Shown: positions 10,179 to 57,614 of the stretch, piece by piece
Position numbering within the stretch: position 1 is the stretch's first letter
Layout: every line of letters begins with the position of its first letter
Source: Cellulophaga sp. HaHaR_3_176
GTDB taxonomy: Bacteria; Bacteroidota; Bacteroidia; Flavobacteriales; Flavobacteriaceae
Direction of reading: 5' to 3'
Assembly: GCF_019021925.1 (NCBI RefSeq)
Contig: NZ_CP058990.1
Location: 612,001-676,000, forward strand
Length of the DNA stretch: 64,000 nucleotides
Made by a program: the position numbers and the translations under genes
The notes under the pieces: model-generated
Databases searched by the model: none
What the model saw: only the letters and a program-made list of their open reading frames with translations
What the model was told of the DNA's origin: nothing

Positions 10179-10272
10179 TAGGCATGTTACTAAATTGTTA
10201 ATTCTTAGAAATTATCATTTAAATATCCTCATTCCGGTTTTAGTATCATAGTTTTTTTATAGTTTTACAGAG

Positions 10273-10354
10273 TAAACTTTAGGGGTGTTCCTTTTACGGA
10301 ACTGAGAAATACCCTTTGAACCTGATGCGGTTAGTACCGCCGAAGGGAAAAGTT
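10273..10354 (+). promoter_or_regulatory. TPP riboswitch (THI element)
   Basis: Hallmark blocks are present in order: AGGGGTG (10281-10287), ACTGAGAAATACCC (10301-10314) and GAACCTGATGCGGTTAGTA (10318-10336), then ACCGCCGAAGGGAA. Helix P1 is AACTTT (10275-10280) with AAAGTT (10348-10353). It lies about 125 bp before thiS, the first gene of the thiamin operon, and should lower its expression when thiamin pyrophosphate is bound. Confidence 0.95.
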
Positions 10355-10427
10355 GAAAAATACCTTGAAATGGGTATTTGCAACCTTTTCATATGTGTGT
10401 GCTTTGTTCTTAAAGCACCTCATTTTT
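10351..10427 (+). promoter_or_regulatory. Putative expression platform with terminator-like hairpin
   Basis: A first hairpin pairs GTTGAAAAATACC with GGGTATTTGCAAC (about 10351-10384) and shares bases with the 3' strand of P1, so it cannot form together with a closed aptamer. A second hairpin, GTGCTTT/AAAGCAC (10399-10418), is followed by CTCATTTTT and looks like a weak terminator. The switch logic is inferred from these overlaps. Confidence 0.5.
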
Positions 10428-12619: not shown

Positions 12620-12642
12620 CTACGCCTTGGAAAAAGGCGTAG
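12620..12642. repeat. Intergenic hairpin repeat between thiC and the thiE-like gene
   Basis: CTACGCC (12620-12626) and GGCGTAG (12636-12642) form a 7-bp stem with a 9-nt loop, followed by TCGGGCTTTCCGTTATATC. This tail resembles a short intergenic repeat I associate with flavobacterial genomes (from memory). A TTG-initiated reading frame passes through it, which argues against the longer start for the next gene. Confidence 0.5.
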
Positions 12643-12755
12643 TCGGGCTTTCCGTTATATCTTTTGCCTATTCGTATAAGTTTATGTCGTTTTACGCCAT
12701 AAATTTACACCAACAGCAAAAGGATGCCACTGCAATCCCTAACCCAAAAAAAAGT

Positions 12756-31707: not shown

Positions 31708-31716
31708 TTTATTTAA

Positions 31717-31843
31717 TGTCACGTTCTAAAATATGGCTACAAATTAATACTTGTTTTAAACGGTATTTAAGCACACATAATTAGGTGTTTTATACTTTAA
31801 AGATAAATGTATTTTTTTACAGTTTTATAATTTAATAGCGTTT
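31717..31843. mobile_element. Remnant of an IS3-family element
   Basis: About 127 bp closely resemble the end of the complete IS3 element at 33025: it starts with the same TGTCACGT(T/C)CTAAAATA end, and both share TAATTAGGTGTTTTATA and AAAGATAAATG. On the minus strand it encodes a decayed version of the transposase C-terminus (KTPNYV is kept). The rest of the copy has been lost. Confidence 0.85.
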
Positions 31844-32970: not shown

Positions 32971-33063
32971 TTCACTAATATCATTAGGTGAGTAATGGTC
33001 TATGTTTTTTAAACGAATTAGTACTGTCACGTCCTAAAATACGGCTACAGATTAATATTAGTT

Positions 33064-33921
33064 TTAAGCGGCATATTGATGCACGTAATTAGGTGTTTTA
33101 TAATCTAAAGATAAATGCAATCTTTTAGAGTTGTATAATTTGATTGCATTTTTTGCTGCTTTTTTAGCATGTATCACGCTGGTAAAGGTTTGGTCAAGAT
33201 AGAATTCATCTTTTAGAATACCGTTTACCCTTTCTGCTAGGGCGTTTTCATAGCAATGGTTTTCTTCAGTCATACTGATTTTAATTTTCTTTCTTTTTAG
33301 TATTTGGGTATAGACGTTACTGCAATATTGAATACCTCTGTCCGAGTGATGAATAAGTTGGTCAATGTTTTTAGCATTGTAAATAGCCTTATTTAAAGCT
33401 CTGACACACCCTTTTAGTTCTAGGCTATCACTTAGGTCATATCCAACGATTTTACGTGAGTACATGTCCGTGATCAATGCTAGGTAACAGAATCCTTTAA
33501 TGGTTCTGATGTAGGTTATATCGGAAGCCCAGACTTGATTAGGTCTATTGATTTTCAAGTCTTTTATAATATTGCCATACTTGTAAAACCGGTGATATGA
33601 ATTTGTGGTTCTAGAAGAATATTTTTTTCTTCTAACGAGTAATCGATTTTCTCTTAGGATACGGAACAGCTGGTCTCTACCGACTTTAAGGTCGTACTTT
33701 TGAAACTCATTTTTTAATGATCTCATGAGTTTTCTGGTACCTTCTCGAGGTAGTGTTCTTCTACTTTCCCGAACAAGTTGGATTACATCTTGTTCTATCT
33801 GTTTTTTGATAACAAAACGTTTTTGGAATTTGTAATAGGCATCTCTTTTCAGATCAAAGGCATTACAGATAGTACAAATTGAATAGAGCCTTTCATTACG
33901 GTTTATCGGTGCTACTTTCAT
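33064..33921 (-). CDS. IS3-family transposase OrfB (DDE integrase-like)
   Basis: A 285-residue retroviral-integrase-type transposase. The N-terminal HTH_21 region (about residues 40-95, REGTRKLMRSLKNE) precedes the rve catalytic core. DDE residues are in VWASDITYIRT, HHSDRGIQYCS and ENALAERVNGILKDE, all intact. Its ATG overlaps the orfA stop by one base (TAATG), so it is likely expressed by coupling rather than by frameshift fusion. The element could still be active. Confidence 0.93.
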   Translation of the reverse strand: MKVAPINRNERLYSICTICNAFDLKRDAYYKFQKRFVIKKQIEQDVIQLVRESRRTLPREGTRKLMRSLKNEFQKYDLKVGRDQLFRILRENRLLVRRKKYSSRTTNSYHRFYKYGNIIKDLKINRPNQVWASDITYIRTIKGFCYLALITDMYSRKIVGYDLSDSLELKGCVRALNKAIYNAKNIDQLIHHSDRGIQYCSNVYTQILKRKKIKISMTEENHCYENALAERVNGILKDEFYLDQTFTSVIHAKKAAKNAIKLYNSKRLHLSLDYKTPNYVHQYAA

Positions 33922-34292
33922 TAGGGCTTTATGTTTAAGTTTTTTTTTAATTCTTCAACATCTCTATAGCCTAGGTTCTCGGCCGCTACCTCGAGATAGC
34001 TATCGGTCACCAGTTTGTCCAGGTCCTTTTTAATGAGAAGGTCCTTAAGTTGATTGAGCTCTTTTTGAAGGGCTTTGATACGGGAAAGTTCATCGTCTGT
34101 TTGCACGGTTACACGGGTATTCATTAAATCTTTACGATCATACTTTTTGATCCATACGTTTATAGTACTGGATTGAATACCGTAAGTTAATGCAATTTGT
34201 CTTTTGGAATGGTTTCCTTTGGTAAGTTCTGCCAAGACTTTGAGCTTAAAGCTTTCACTATAGCGTTTTACATATCCATCATTTTTATACAT
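33921..34292 (-). CDS. IS3-family transposase OrfA
   Basis: A DNA-binding subunit of about 123 residues. The helix-turn-helix is RQIALTYGIQSSTINVWIKK, and a leucine-rich coiled coil follows (LSRIKALQKELNQLKDLLIK). The ATG at 34292 is preferred, about 40 bp inside the element end; another ATG at 34316 is possible. The frame ends one base into the orfB start codon. Confidence 0.88.
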   Translation of the reverse strand: MYKNDGYVKRYSESFKLKVLAELTKGNHSKRQIALTYGIQSSTINVWIKKYDRKDLMNTRVTVQTDDELSRIKALQKELNQLKDLLIKKDLDKLVTDSYLEVAAENLGYRDVEELKKNLNIKP

Positions 34293-34340
34293 ATACTTGA
34301 AGTGTTTTGTATACATATTTCAGGACGGGTCAAATTTGTG

Positions 34341-34537
34341 GGCAACGTTTAGGCTATGGTTAGTACGGGATTTAAAAGTAATTAATTTCCGAATAAGCAC
34401 TTAGCCAAATCTTTTTATTTTGTTTTTTTCTTTTTTGTCTAAAATGCAAAGTCCATAAGATTTTGCGACCTACCAAAAACACACAGACTTTGGCAGATAA
34501 ACCTCAAGTCCGGATTAATTATAGGCTTTGTTGTAAG
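34341..34537. repeat. attC-like array repeat G
   Basis: The left arm GGCAACGTTTAGGCTATGG (34341-34359) and the right arm ATTATAGGCTTTGTTG (about 34518-34533) pair in register (CAAC/GTTG, GCTAT/ATAGGC, GGTTA/TTAAT, CGGGA/TCCGG). The centre contains TCCGAATAAGCACTTAGCC, the same block as in repeats H and I. The IS3 element inserted 8 bp outside its left core. Confidence 0.78.
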
Positions 34538-34967: not shown

Positions 34968-35164
34968 GCTTACAACGGTTAGTGTATGGAACGTAGCGTC
35001 TAAAAAGACACTAACTTTTCGGATAAACACAGAGCCGAATTTTTATATTTTGTTTTTTACTTTTCCATTTTAAAAGCCAAATCAACGATTTGGCGGACTT
35101 AAGTAAAAGTATGAATTTTCGGTTTAGTAGAATCTCCGCATTAACTATAGGTGGTGTTACCAAC
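34968..35164. repeat. attC-like array repeat H
   Basis: The left arm TTACAACGGTTAGTGTATGG and the right arm ACTATAGGTGGTGTTACCAAC form an imperfect inverted repeat. ACGTAGCGTCTAAAAAGACAC, CGGATAAACACAGAGCC and an inner hairpin GCCAAATC-AAC-GATTTGGC fill the centre. The first two blocks recur in repeat I. The right core GTTAC overlaps the stop codon of the DUF4304 gene. Confidence 0.78.
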
Positions 35165-35807
35165 TTTTTTCTATTTTTTCTTTTAACTCAGGAGTTAGTT
35201 TTTCATATTCAGCGATTAAAGAAATCATTTTATCAACTCTTTTCCGAGCAGTATTCGGATCGTTATATTTTCCTTTTATTGATTTAAGAAACTTAGTTAA
35301 GCGAATCATATAATCTTCCAAATTTGATATTTGATTATTTATACATAAGTATTTAATTAAGTCAAAACTACCTTGTAAGCTATCTTGTGAAGTCATAAAT
35401 TCGATACAACTTTTTTCAGTTTCGTGATTATAAAAAAAAGGAATTAAGTCAGATTCAATTACTTTTTTTAAATTTTCAGCAATTGGTTCTATTTCCGTAA
35501 TATTTGTAATATTAAATTCATCACTTTCGAATTCGTCAGTTATTCTATTAATACTAAATCTATAATCAGCATACATTTCTGATTTTAAATCTCGATTTTC
35601 TGGTTTCAAACCATTGATTAAGATTCCACATCTGAAATAGAAGCGGAGTTGCTCGTGAGAATTTCCTTGACTTAATTGAAGTGTAGCTACCTGTTGTGTT
35701 TCGTTAAGTTTTTTGATAAAGTGATTTCCAGATTTTTTAAATCCAGCTTCCTTCAGTGCTGGGTGAATTCCACTTTTCACAATTTCTTTAAACTTATCTT
35801 TTATCAT
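35157..35807 (-). CDS. DUF4304 protein
   Basis: A 216-residue cytoplasmic protein. The opening IHPALKEAGFKKSGNHFIKK (about residues 14-33), followed by TLQLSQGNSHEQLRFYFRCG, is the signature of DUF4304, a domain often found as a stand-alone gene near toxin-immunity islands. The C-terminal half is helical and ends in a tail rich in Lys and Glu. It is a single-gene unit between repeats H and I; its TAA stop is formed by the core of repeat H. Confidence 0.75.
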   Translation of the reverse strand: MIKDKFKEIVKSGIHPALKEAGFKKSGNHFIKKLNETQQVATLQLSQGNSHEQLRFYFRCGILINGLKPENRDLKSEMYADYRFSINRITDEFESDEFNITNITEIEPIAENLKKVIESDLIPFFYNHETEKSCIEFMTSQDSLQGSFDLIKYLCINNQISNLEDYMIRLTKFLKSIKGKYNDPNTARKRVDKMISLIAEYEKLTPELKEKIEKSW

Positions 35808-35817
35808 TTTTATCTAA

Positions 35818-36011
35818 TTGTTGGTAACGTTTATGTATATGAAACGTAGCGTATAAATAGACGCTAAACTTTCGGATTGTACACGAGCCAAATTTTTTAA
35901 TTTACTATTTATCTTATTTTCTAAAAATTTAAATTAAAAAATTTGGCGGACTTCGCAGATATGCCTGTACTTCCGATTAAGCACCAAAACCGCAATTATT
36001 TTTATACATCT
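35818..36011. repeat. attC-like array repeat I, interrupted by IS110
   Basis: The left arm TTGTTGGTAACGTTTATGTAT is followed by ACGTAGCGTATAAATAGACGC and CGGATTGTACACGAGCC, both shared with repeat H. A perfect 18-bp inner stem pairs 35887-35904 with 35930-35947 (GCCAAATTTTTTAATTTA and its complement). The right arm reaches TTATACATCT (36002-36011) and stops at the IS110 junction; its missing end, TTGTTGGCAAATC, is found at 37303. Confidence 0.8.
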
Positions 36012-36039
36012 TAAGTTTGTAATTCATTAAATTAGAAAG

Positions 36040-36190
36040 ATAAACAGAAAGAACAAAAGAGAGGAATAAGATTATTTTATACGTAGAGACTACAGATCTC
36101 GTCAACATTGAAAATCCCCTCTCTTTTCTACACAGATTTTGTACAGTTCTATGAGGCTTTGACCTCGATTTTAAGTTGTTGAAACTCGCG
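36040..36190 (+). ncRNA. Candidate IS110 bridge RNA
   Basis: AAAAGAGAGG (36055-36064) pairs with CCTCTCTTTT (36118-36127), enclosing a loop that holds TATACGT (36078-36084; left target is TATACAT at 36003-36009) and CAACA (36103-36107; complementary to TGTTG at 37304-37308). A second hairpin has GAGG/CCTC (36153-36166) flanked by CAGTTCT (36144-36150), identical to the element's right end and core at 37296-37302, and TTTAAG (36170-36175), able to pair with CTTAAG at 36010-36015. These are the four guides expected of a bridge RNA. The exact ends are not known. Confidence 0.68.
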
Positions 36191-36221
36191 TAGTTTGTCC
36201 TTTCAAAAAAAACATTTTCTT

Positions 36222-37189
36222 ATGAATAAAGATATTAAATATTTTGGGATAGACATTAGTCATTTAGTATTTGATGTTACAGATTCCGATGGTAAATACT
36301 ATCAGTTTAAAAATACTGTAACTGGTTTTAATAAGTTTGTAAAACTCTTAAGTAAAGAGAGCCATTGTGTAATGGAAGCTACAGGATACTATCATTATCA
36401 ATTGGCTTATCATTTACTTGAATCAGGAGTAAAAGTATCGGTAGAAAATCCTTTATCAGTAAAGCGTTTTATACAGATGAAGTTATCTAAGATAAAGACC
36501 GATAAAAGTGATTCAAAACTGATTTGTTCTTATGCAGAACAGGTAGATTTAAAGTTATGGCAAGGAAATTCTAAACATCAAATAGAATGCCTGCAAATGA
36601 CAAGGCTACTATCAAGGCTGACAAAACAGAGCACGATGCTTAAAAATAAATTACACGGAGAATCTGTATTGGGTAATCCAAGTAAAGCTGTTGTTAGTTC
36701 TATAAGACGTATTTTAAAACAAGTACAGCAAGAAATAAAGACAATAGAAGACAAATTATTAGATTTAGTAAAGCAAGTGCATCAGGATATTTTAACACGT
36801 TTAAAAAGTATACCCGGAATAGGAGATAAGACAGCGATTATGTTAATTGTTATAACCGATGTTTTTCAAAGTTTGAACACGTAGCACAGTTATGCAGTTA
36901 CGTTGGAATTACGCCTACTATAAGGGAGTCTGGCAGTAGTGTTAAAGGTAGATCACGGATAAGTAAAGTCGGTAATAGAAAACTGCGCAATCTATTATTT
37001 TTATGTTCGTTTAATGCCTGTAAGCATAATAAAGCCTGCCGAGAACTTTATGAGCGCATAGTAAATAAAGGTAAAAGCAAGAAAGTTGCATTAATTGCTG
37101 TAGCAAATAAGCTGCTTAAACAATGCTTTGCTATTGCAAAATCAGGAAGACCGTATGATGAAACTTACGTTTCTGTATTGCCAAGATAA
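36222..37189 (+). pseudogene. IS110-family transposase, frameshifted
   Basis: The N-terminal DEDD/RuvC-like half (YFGIDISH, CVMEATGYYHYQ, KTDKSDSKLI) stops at 36884. The C-terminal half continues in the -1 frame from about 36873 to the stop at 37189, with GITPTIRESGSSVKGR carrying the catalytic serine and SKVGNRKLRNLLF. The junction is around AAAGTTTGAACAC (36868-36880); one missing T explains the break. An alternative TTG start at 36195 exists, but the ATG at 36222 begins directly before the first catalytic strand. Confidence 0.88.
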
Positions 37190-37207
37190 ATAGAGAATAC
37201 ATAGCAT

Positions 37208-37244
37208 AAAAAAACTCAAAGAATCAAGTTATTGAATCTTTGAG
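37208..37244 (-). terminator. Terminator-like hairpin in the right end of IS110
   Basis: CTCAAAGAATCAA (37215-37227) pairs with TTGAATCTTTGAG (37232-37244) with one mismatch. On the minus strand it is followed by seven T residues, so it could end transcription coming from the YwqK-like gene into the element. Confidence 0.65.
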
Positions 37245-37302
37245 CCTAAACTATTAGTGTCTCAAATTATTGAAGAATTTGTTTGTTTTTTACCTCAGTT
37301 CT

Positions 37303-37313
37303 TTGTTGGCAAA
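37303..37313. repeat. Displaced right end of array repeat I
   Basis: TTGTTGGCAAA lies directly after the IS110 right junction and completes the right arm of repeat I that was cut at 36011. Confidence 0.7.
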
Positions 37314-37316
37314 TCG

Positions 37317-37868
37317 TTATTTTATATACTCTCCATTTTCATAACGAATTGTTTCCAATAGATTTCCATCAATATCGTATAATTTCATTGTTCCATTTCC
37401 ATTATTAAAAGTTCCTTTATCCAATTCTTTACCTTGACCATCATAACAAGAAATAATTCTTGTTAATTTTCCATCGTTCCATTCTCTTTCAGTATATAAT
37501 TCTCCATTTGTATGATACCAAGTCCATTTTCCAATTCTTTTTCCGTGAATCAGAGTTCCAACTCCAGCTTGGTTTCCGTTATCGTGATAAAATTTCCATT
37601 CTCCATTTTGTTCATTGTTCAGAAACTCTCCGATTTGTTCTAATTCTCCATTATTATGAAACCATTTCCATAGTCCAGTCCTTTTTCCGTTATTATATTT
37701 TCCTCCACCTTGAAAATTTCCATTTTTGAAGTAGTATTTCCATTTACCGTTTTTTTGTCCATTAGAAATTTTCCCAGTCTTTTCAATCATTCCATTTTCG
37801 TAATATTCTTTACTTGTACTACAAGAACTAAAAATCACTATCAGAATTAGGAAAAAAATTTGTTTCAT
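37317..37868 (-). CDS. YwqK-like MORN-variant lipoprotein
   Basis: A protein of about 183 residues with a lipoprotein signal (MKQIFFLILIVIFSSCS). Six MORN-variant repeats follow, such as YYENGMIEKTGKISNGQKNG, YFKNGNFQGGGKYNNGKRTG and FHNNGELEQIGEFLNNEQNG. Such proteins are named YwqK-family antitoxin components, but the role is unproven and this copy is exported. An upstream in-frame ATG at 37931 lies inside array repeat J; the lipoprotein signal fixes the start at 37868. It is a single-gene unit between repeats I and J. Confidence 0.82.
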   Translation of the reverse strand: MKQIFFLILIVIFSSCSTSKEYYENGMIEKTGKISNGQKNGKWKYYFKNGNFQGGGKYNNGKRTGLWKWFHNNGELEQIGEFLNNEQNGEWKFYHDNGNQAGVGTLIHGKRIGKWTWYHTNGELYTEREWNDGKLTRIISCYDGQGKELDKGTFNNGNGTMKLYDIDGNLLETIRYENGEYIK

Positions 37869-37887
37869 AAAATGCACTTTCTTTAAT

Positions 37888-38030
37888 GTTTGCCAACGTG
37901 ATTGTGTATGGTTAGTTGCGTGTTTCAGCAACTAATTTAGTAAACAAAAACGAACGCGAGAAAATTCCGAAGGAATTTTCCAAATAGGCAACGACCAAAG
38001 CAATTAATTATACATGGTGTTGTACGCTGG
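37888..38030. repeat. attC-like array repeat J
   Basis: The left arm TTGCCAACGTGATTGTGTATGG and the right arm TTAATTATACATGGTGTTGTACG pair over most of their length. Inside lie two hairpins: TTAGTTGC/GCAACTAA (37912-37935) and GAAAATTCC-GAA-GGAATTTTC (37960-37980). The right arm carries TTATACAT (38008-38015) as in repeats B and I. It is the cleanest copy in the window. Confidence 0.82.
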
Positions 38031-57536: not shown

Positions 57537-57614
57537 CGGGGTGTAGCGTAGCCCGGTTATCGCGCCGCGTTTGGGACGCGGAGGTCGCAGGTTCGAATCC
57601 TGCCACCCCGACCA
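57537..57614 (+). tRNA. tRNA-Pro (anticodon TGG)
   Basis: The acceptor stem CGGGGTG (57537-57543) pairs with CACCCCG (57604-57610), then discriminator A and an encoded CCA (57612-57614). The anticodon stem CCGCG/CGCGG surrounds loop TTTGGGA, giving anticodon TGG. The T loop region GGTTCGAATCC is canonical. A strong terminator follows at 57624. Confidence 0.98.

Follow-up and report, generated by a model that had tools for sequence, protein, structure and literature searches.

Comparative analysis of an insertion sequence from Cellulophaga sp. HaHaR_3_176 supports a model in which a lineage of the IS110 group has become specialised on the cassette-array repeats of Flavobacteriaceae, the left end of the element encoding a putative bridge RNA. 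The copy in the window (the whole stretch of DNA that was analysed, 64,000 nucleotides in length) is a defective chimera, and we place the probability of this overall reading at about 0.92. The original prediction, an IS110-group bridge RNA programmed for an arm of the array repeat, was borne out far beyond the window copy.

The element and its bridge RNA

The element (CTTAAG...CAGTTCTT) lies on the forward strand at positions 36010-37303 of the window, in a genome of 3.80 Mb. Its ends, CTTAAGTTT on the left and CAGTTCTT on the right, were placed by comparison with relatives and with empty arms and give a length of 1294 bp. Matches to both PF01548 (the N-terminal DEDD domain) and PF02371 (the C-terminal Transposase_20 domain) assign the transposase to the IS110 group, and residues D11, E52, D94, D97, S237 and G238 are invariant among six intact relatives. 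The gene of the window copy is frameshifted, a point overlooked in the original prediction, and the two Pfam matches therefore fall in two frames: the 5′ part with PF01548 (36222-36884, +) ends at the frameshift stop, and the 3′ part with PF02371 (36860-37189, +) is read in the other frame. The longer non-coding end lies upstream of the transposase (212 nt, 36010-36221, before the start codon at 36222; 114 nt downstream, 37190-37303), the arrangement given for the IS110 group in PMC11208160.

Within the host genome, positions 36010-36845 are identical to a second copy (L061) except for one base, while positions 36843-37303 match a third (L062) with two differences, one of which is the frame-breaking deletion near 36860. 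The breakpoint between the two parts falls at 36843-36845 (+), with the frameshift about 15 nt away. The two other copies, located at 1945.9-1947.1 kb and 1872.3-1873.6 kb of the genome, have uninterrupted transposases. The presence of both ends, with array sequence on either side, would suit an ordinary single insertion that later decayed through mutation. However, the pattern of near-identity to two different copies refutes such an origin, which we consider extremely improbable, and together with the frameshift it removes the intact single insertion that the original prediction had implied. By this comparison the window copy arose by recombination between two other copies resident in the genome, and it has probably lost autonomous movement; because it is a chimera, its left and right flanks may derive from two separate insertions. 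Recombination between two copies inside one array would remove the intervening cassettes. Being chimeric, and with a 210-nt RNA whose fold is on a par with those of shuffled sequence (z -0.05; 93 of 200 shuffles equally good), the window copy was rejected as the main evidence. When tandem copies were considered as a source of rearrangement, an exact junction of right end to left end was found at one of 248 loci scanned (L085). There, at positions 420-440 of the locus, two elements stand head to tail with the right end CAGTTCTT abutting the left end CTTAAG, a joint that on its sequence is the donor junction of the putative circular form set in the chromosome.

The bridge RNA region (36045-36204, +) was delimited by alignment and covariation rather than by transcript ends, and is closed by an outer helix of 36047-36054 with 36197-36204. 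Within it, the target-binding loop and its closing stem (36055-36128, +) contain the left target guide ATTTTATACGT (36074-36084, +), which has nine identities and one G-U among 11 positions relative to its own flank, and the right target guide CAACA (36103-36107, +), the complement of TGTTG. These guides are separated by the hairpin GAGAC-TACA-GATCTC (36086-36100, +), which displays compensatory changes (helix 3). The donor loop carries the guide CAGTTCT (36144-36150, +), the same as the right end of the element, followed by a hairpin GAGG...CCTC with compensatory changes (36153-36166, +; helix 6) and the guide TTTAAG (36170-36175, +), which was assigned from sequence and is complementary to the left end CTTAAG apart from a single G-U. 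The target guides are complementary to the target and the left guide is located 5′ of the right guide, as in the IS110 group. The four guide matches originally proposed (TATACGT at 36078-36084, together with CAACA, CAGTTCT and TTTAAG at the positions above) are all present in the non-coding left end; matches of 5-7 bases are common in 210 bases, so that these are unremarkable alone and gain their significance from comparison with relatives.

The RNA alignment comprised 30 related sequences (34 after near-identical ones were dropped, minus four with long inserts). RNAalifold, blind to the structure, returned 36 pairs, eight of which had pair-keeping changes on both sides. The named structure also contains 36 pairs, with 97.2% of cells paired compared to 44-51% for slid versions and ten pairs changed on both sides compared to a shuffled mean of 6.4 (0 of 500 as high), scores that are biased towards this structure since it was taken from the same alignment. 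For the target loop, a covariance model (R1) was built from 26 relatives with the window left out; it matched 36055-36128 at 89.2 bits (E=3e-18), so that the covariance check suggested with the original prediction came out in its favour. R1 had exactly three matches in the host genome, one at each left end (that of the window copy, of L061 and of L062). Covariation and R1 together describe a structured left-end RNA with a target loop and a donor loop, characteristic of the IS110 group. On the element RNA all Rfam families stayed below their gathering scores, and no bridge-RNA family was matched; elsewhere in the window the Rfam scan returned a TPP riboswitch (10271-10365, +), a Flavo-1 RNA (12637-12749, -) and a tRNA (57537-57611, +).

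On the donor side, the guide CAGTTCT accompanies a CAGTTCTT end in 69 of 71 readable relatives. In L183 the guide CAGATCT occurs with the end CAGATCTT, the donor guide and the end being altered alike, and in L195 the donor guide is interrupted after CAGTTC. Short palindromes (of the CCTGCCTG...CAGGCAGG or CCCGA...TCGGG type) have been inserted in the donor or target loop of some bridge RNAs (palindrome-bearing loci L074, L075, L081, L082, L086, L195; L137, L125, L136), and they are also found inside the transposase gene of L082 and L086.

Target arms and the cassette arrays

The window copy is flanked by TTATACAT on the left, and its right flank contains TGTTGG. The left target TTTTTATACAT (35999-36009, +) is the left part of an array-repeat arm, with its last two bases as the putative core, and the right target TGTTGG (37304-37309, +) is the right part. 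Empty arms in arrays, among those listed, read TATACAT|TGTTG, TATACGG|TGTTR, TATACGT|TGTTR, TATACCT|TGTTA and other variants, mostly of the form TATACXY|TGTTR without a CT core. Because such intact arms exist in arrays, the bases CTT were assigned to the element and the right target was set to begin at 37304. The target as originally proposed, TTATACAT-CT-TTGTTGG, was not confirmed, since a search of the window that tolerated up to three mismatches found no TATACATCTTTGTTGG and the empty arms lack the CT; a CT core with the target TTATACATCTTTGTTGG was rejected likewise, the empty arms reading otherwise and the window holding no match. An arm at 34520 in the window, TATAGGCTTTGTTG, contains CTTTGTTG and has a shorter left part.

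Relatives were taken as the best 80 of 320 loci encoding a relative in a protein-pattern scan of named genomes, and since the query was the transposase alone, flanking sequence had no influence on selection. These 80 come from many genera of Flavobacteriaceae (including Cellulophaga, Maribacter, Polaribacter, Winogradskyella, Aequorivita and Psychroflexus), with a few records under other labels; a DNA search gave matches in 39 genomes among 100 relatives. After eight of the 80 without a readable left flank and eight without a readable right flank had been dropped from the respective counts, TATA[CG] was found in 68/72 left flanks, cytosine at position -3 in 71/72, TGTTR in 68/72 right flanks, and both flanks fitted in 58 of the 64 relatives with both ends readable. 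The original prediction would have suffered from related copies at unrelated sites under unchanged guides; the deviants were four left flanks (L127, L138, L167, L196) and four right flanks (L134, L160, L166, L167), and retargeted relatives carry changed guides. Since L138 and L196 carry TGTTG on the right, they may represent later rearrangements. Solitary right ends of approximately 40-200 bp followed by TGTTR were observed in the host genome (L005-L008) and in many relatives, some of them beginning near query position 1101-1129, the start of the transposase 3′ end. In the host genome TGTTR follows three of the four such fragments read, and TATTA follows L005.

The array repeat interrupted by the element spans 35808-36009 (no strand assigned), with its remainder at 37304-37316, and has 20 matches in its own genome. 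On the right it is followed by a cassette gene with MORN_2 repeats (37317-37931, -), whose 3′ end is 13 nt past the right junction, and on the left lies the next cassette gene of the array, encoding DUF4304 (35157-35807, -); array neighbours in the window comprise Imm70, DUF4304, DUF1963 and MORN_2 genes, the repeat serving to separate small genes of defence type. The same array also harbours an IS3-type transposase pair (131 and 285 aa; 33064-34316, -), around which a 130-nt repeat occurs twice (31714-31843 and 33022-33151, 81% identity).

The array setting extends to the relatives. Two profiles of the repeat interior were built from intact arms of the host and related genomes and applied at least 11 nt from the junction. 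Profiles from several genomes matched 57/70 left flanks and the profile from the host genome alone matched 30/70, compared to 0/210 controls in both cases (70 block-shuffled flanks, 70 window segments and 70 transposase segments). Neither profile matched the remaining 13 left flanks, some of which are array-like by eye, while L138, L147 and L196 are not. In 55/68 cases an opposite-strand gene had its stop codon no more than 60 nt from the right junction (four of 72 right flanks were left out as too short), compared to 5/64 random positions in the same flanks and 19/500 in the window, indicating that the element lands right behind cassette genes.

The host genome contains 41 occurrences of the minimal motif TATACNNTGTTR, near the control value of 34 for the reversed pattern, and only 14 of them fall in array loci (an array-repeat match no more than about 2 kb away). 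The guide alone thus does not explain the location in arrays, and either longer pairing (TTATA..., GACAACA) or loss of gene-breaking insertions must add to this confinement. The folds of two array repeats outscore those of most shuffled versions (z -2.36 and -2.17), owing to internal hairpins rather than pairing of the outer arms; a classification of the repeat as attC was not adopted, as these folds lack the attC shape.

No tyrosine recombinase was found in the window array; the four PF00589 matches in the genome are all outside the window. One of them (1864008-1865096) heads a cassette-like gene elsewhere in the genome and passes the cut-off of NF040815, the model for site-specific tyrosine recombinase/integron integrase (227.5 vs 220 bits), while missing that of TIGR02249 (202.5 vs 265). 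At this locus (L110, positions 9-1200; genome positions 1864008-1865200) the integron-integrase/XerA-like recombinase is followed directly by a short palindrome, the arm-like sequence TATCCGTACGTTGTAGCC and a co-oriented short gene, and several relatives have a palindrome and GTT[AG] at the same place behind the recombinase, resembling attI. Array-profile matches were found downstream of the recombinase at 12/30 loci, an uncontrolled count, with 14 strong matches all in one orientation.

Correspondence of guide and target

Across 75 copies, the left guide shared an average of 7.89 of 11 identities with its own flank, compared to 7.14 after permutation (0/20,000 as high), a comparison that ignores the shared descent of the relatives (flanks are not inherited when an element moves) and that retains L179, in which a deletion caused the guide to be misread at fixed positions. 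When each of the 26 distinct guides was represented by a single copy, the values were 7.77 and 6.69 (0/20,000). The guide TATAGCCGT is accompanied by the flank TATAGCCGT in L180 and by TATAGCCAT in L186. L062 is an exception, having a guide for TATACACGG yet the flank TATAGCCAG.

A retargeted lineage combines the guide GAUAACCGC with the flank AACC[GA]C at 8/8 readable left ends from two genomes. One of the genomes read, G108, belongs to the same family and contains six copies with the guide GATAACCGC, all six inserted at AAACC[GA]C|TGTTA, and its arrays hold the intact arms AAACCGC|TGTTR (three seen) and AAACTGC|TGTTR (three seen). Two further left ends in G199 fit the retargeted pattern. Within the genus of G108, 4/150 genomes gave matches at E <= 1e-60; among the four loci outside G108, L219 and L221 were readable and L218 was not, and L217 has a like guide (UAUAACCGC) with no recognisable left end. 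The arrays of G108 (L212-L215), with their six retargeted copies, are built on a different repeat family, TAACGTTTTGCAGCTTGGCGAAGTGGCGGATTT ... AAACYGC|TGTTR.

IS110 relatives with the same RNA plan were also identified in other Bacteroidota (G268, G370), where they occupy REP-like repeats. G268, which belongs to a different family, carries a more distant relative in seven copies at (C)GTCAT|TGCGA, with the guides CGTCATTG and CGCAATG. R1 still finds the G268 loop (E=1.2e-5), and has no match in L226, L227 or L229 at E up to 1. Given a recognisable loop at REP-like repeats, the lineage seems, from these sequences, to have shifted from REP-like repeats to cassette arrays. The guides thereby form a series, from the main TATAYACGG through the variants TTTATACGG and TATAGCC and the retargeted ATAACCGC to the REP-targeting outgroups.

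In G268 both target and donor carry AT as the two bases preceding the junction. By homology, this would place the core of the present element at the final two bases of the target (36008-36009) and the TT of the element (37302-37303). The target dinucleotide XY is GT in 24, AT in 20 and GG in 16 of 72 copies and the donor is TT, such that target and donor differ in most copies at a core position transferred from G268. The strict rule of an identical target and donor core comes from IS621 and may not hold family-wide.

The near constancy of both flanks among relatives could mean that TATACXY and TGTTR belong to the ends of the element itself and resemble array arms by chance. Such a reading is hardly credible: intact arms TATACXY|TGTTR occur in arrays free of the element, copies of one element in a single Polaribacter genome (L173-L178) differ in the left flank, the flank varies together with the guide, and the array profiles match interior sequence well away from the junction. 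The empty arms and the changed arms of the retargeted lineage refute it. It is very improbable, too, that the arms are reached through protein recognition or the structure of arm DNA, with the likeness of the guide a by-product of common descent. The minimal motif of the guide is not confined to arrays, and IS1111 elements of attC sites have long been discussed as recognising folded sites. Nevertheless, guides fit the flank of their own copy better than flanks taken from elsewhere, even when each guide is counted once, and a lineage with a different left guide uses a different arm. The loop is, in addition, homologous to the IS621 guides, which have been proven by experiment (PMC11208160).

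Another possibility is that the element is a passenger, the tyrosine recombinase of the array moving element-bearing cassettes so that location reflects cassette traffic. The relatives' arrays often stand behind an integron-integrase-like recombinase (the uncontrolled 12 of 30 loci), yet copies of one element in one genome differ in both flanks, which requires fresh insertions, and the correspondence of guide and target is not expected under cassette traffic. We regard the passenger model as quite unlikely. A role beyond that of a parasite, in which copies and recombinase reshape arrays by deleting or joining cassettes and retarget as arms diverge, is unlikely as well; the element would then be a second agent of turnover beside the tyrosine recombinase, since its target is the cassette boundary, and the window chimera suggests recombination between copies as a route.

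The preferred model is that of a recombinase using the bridge RNA expressed from the left end. In the first loop, the left guide (here UUUAUACGU; UAUAYACGG in most relatives) resembles the left part of the arm and would pair with its bottom strand, while the right guide CAACA would pair with TGTTG of the top strand; in the second loop, CAGUUCU and UUUAAG would each pair with one end of the element. Strand exchange would then join the circular element into the arm between TATACXY and TGTTR, and intact copies may be active in this way. Landing usually occurs downstream of a cassette gene, between a few and a few tens of bases from its stop codon, and the gene stays intact. Guides differ along with the arms.

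Relation to known systems

IS621 and the IS110 group share with the present element a DEDD transposase with PF01548 and PF02371 and a bridge RNA in the long left end, with a target loop containing left and right guides and a donor loop (PMC11208160). The target of IS621 is likewise in repeated intergenic DNA, namely REP elements (PMC11208160), whereas here it is the arm of a cassette-array repeat. The core of IS621 is CT in both target and donor (PMC11208160), while here the donor is TT and the target GT, AT or GG. The working principle would be that of IS621 and ISEc21 (PMC11208160, PMC11187229). Related pairs with a changed guide and a changed target are known in ISEc21/ISMch6 and ISEc11/ISXne4 (PMC11187229); unlike in those pairs, redirection here tracks a change of the arm in the same kind of array.

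In their description the arrays are reminiscent of the rAID arrays of Bacteroidales (PMC12247911): short, co-oriented genes of immunity type are separated by conserved intergenic sequence, and a tyrosine recombinase heads such genes, as it does elsewhere in this genome. The window array differs in having no recombinase.

We found no description of such an array-repeat-targeting IS110 lineage in the open-licence PubMed Central literature. The lineage provides RNA-guided recombinases in a naturally occurring series, guide and target being matched, and permits direct tests of guide rules, core tolerance and natural retargeting.

Counterparts in the choice of target are ISKpn4, ISPst6 and ISPa25, IS1111-group elements of attC sites that are also RNA-guided and located at one end of a cassette recombination site (PMC11187229). 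In the IS1111 group the RNA gene is downstream of the transposase with the guides in reverse order (PMC11187229), whereas here the RNA is upstream; moreover, these IS1111 elements are found at integron attC sites, while the two array repeats folded here show no attC shape. Sub-terminal inverted repeats of 7-17 bp are a further mark of the IS1111 group. The parallel to IS1111 elements at attC, put forward in the original prediction for the IS110 group and another repeat, is upheld as an analogy. Elements with an upstream RNA (IS110) and with a downstream RNA (IS1111) have both come to the gene-cassette boundary, a place where insertion spares genes. Taken together, these comparisons identify the present lineage as an IS110 counterpart of the IS1111 elements at attC sites, apparently specialised on cassette-array repeats and retargeted in nature within that kind of repeat.
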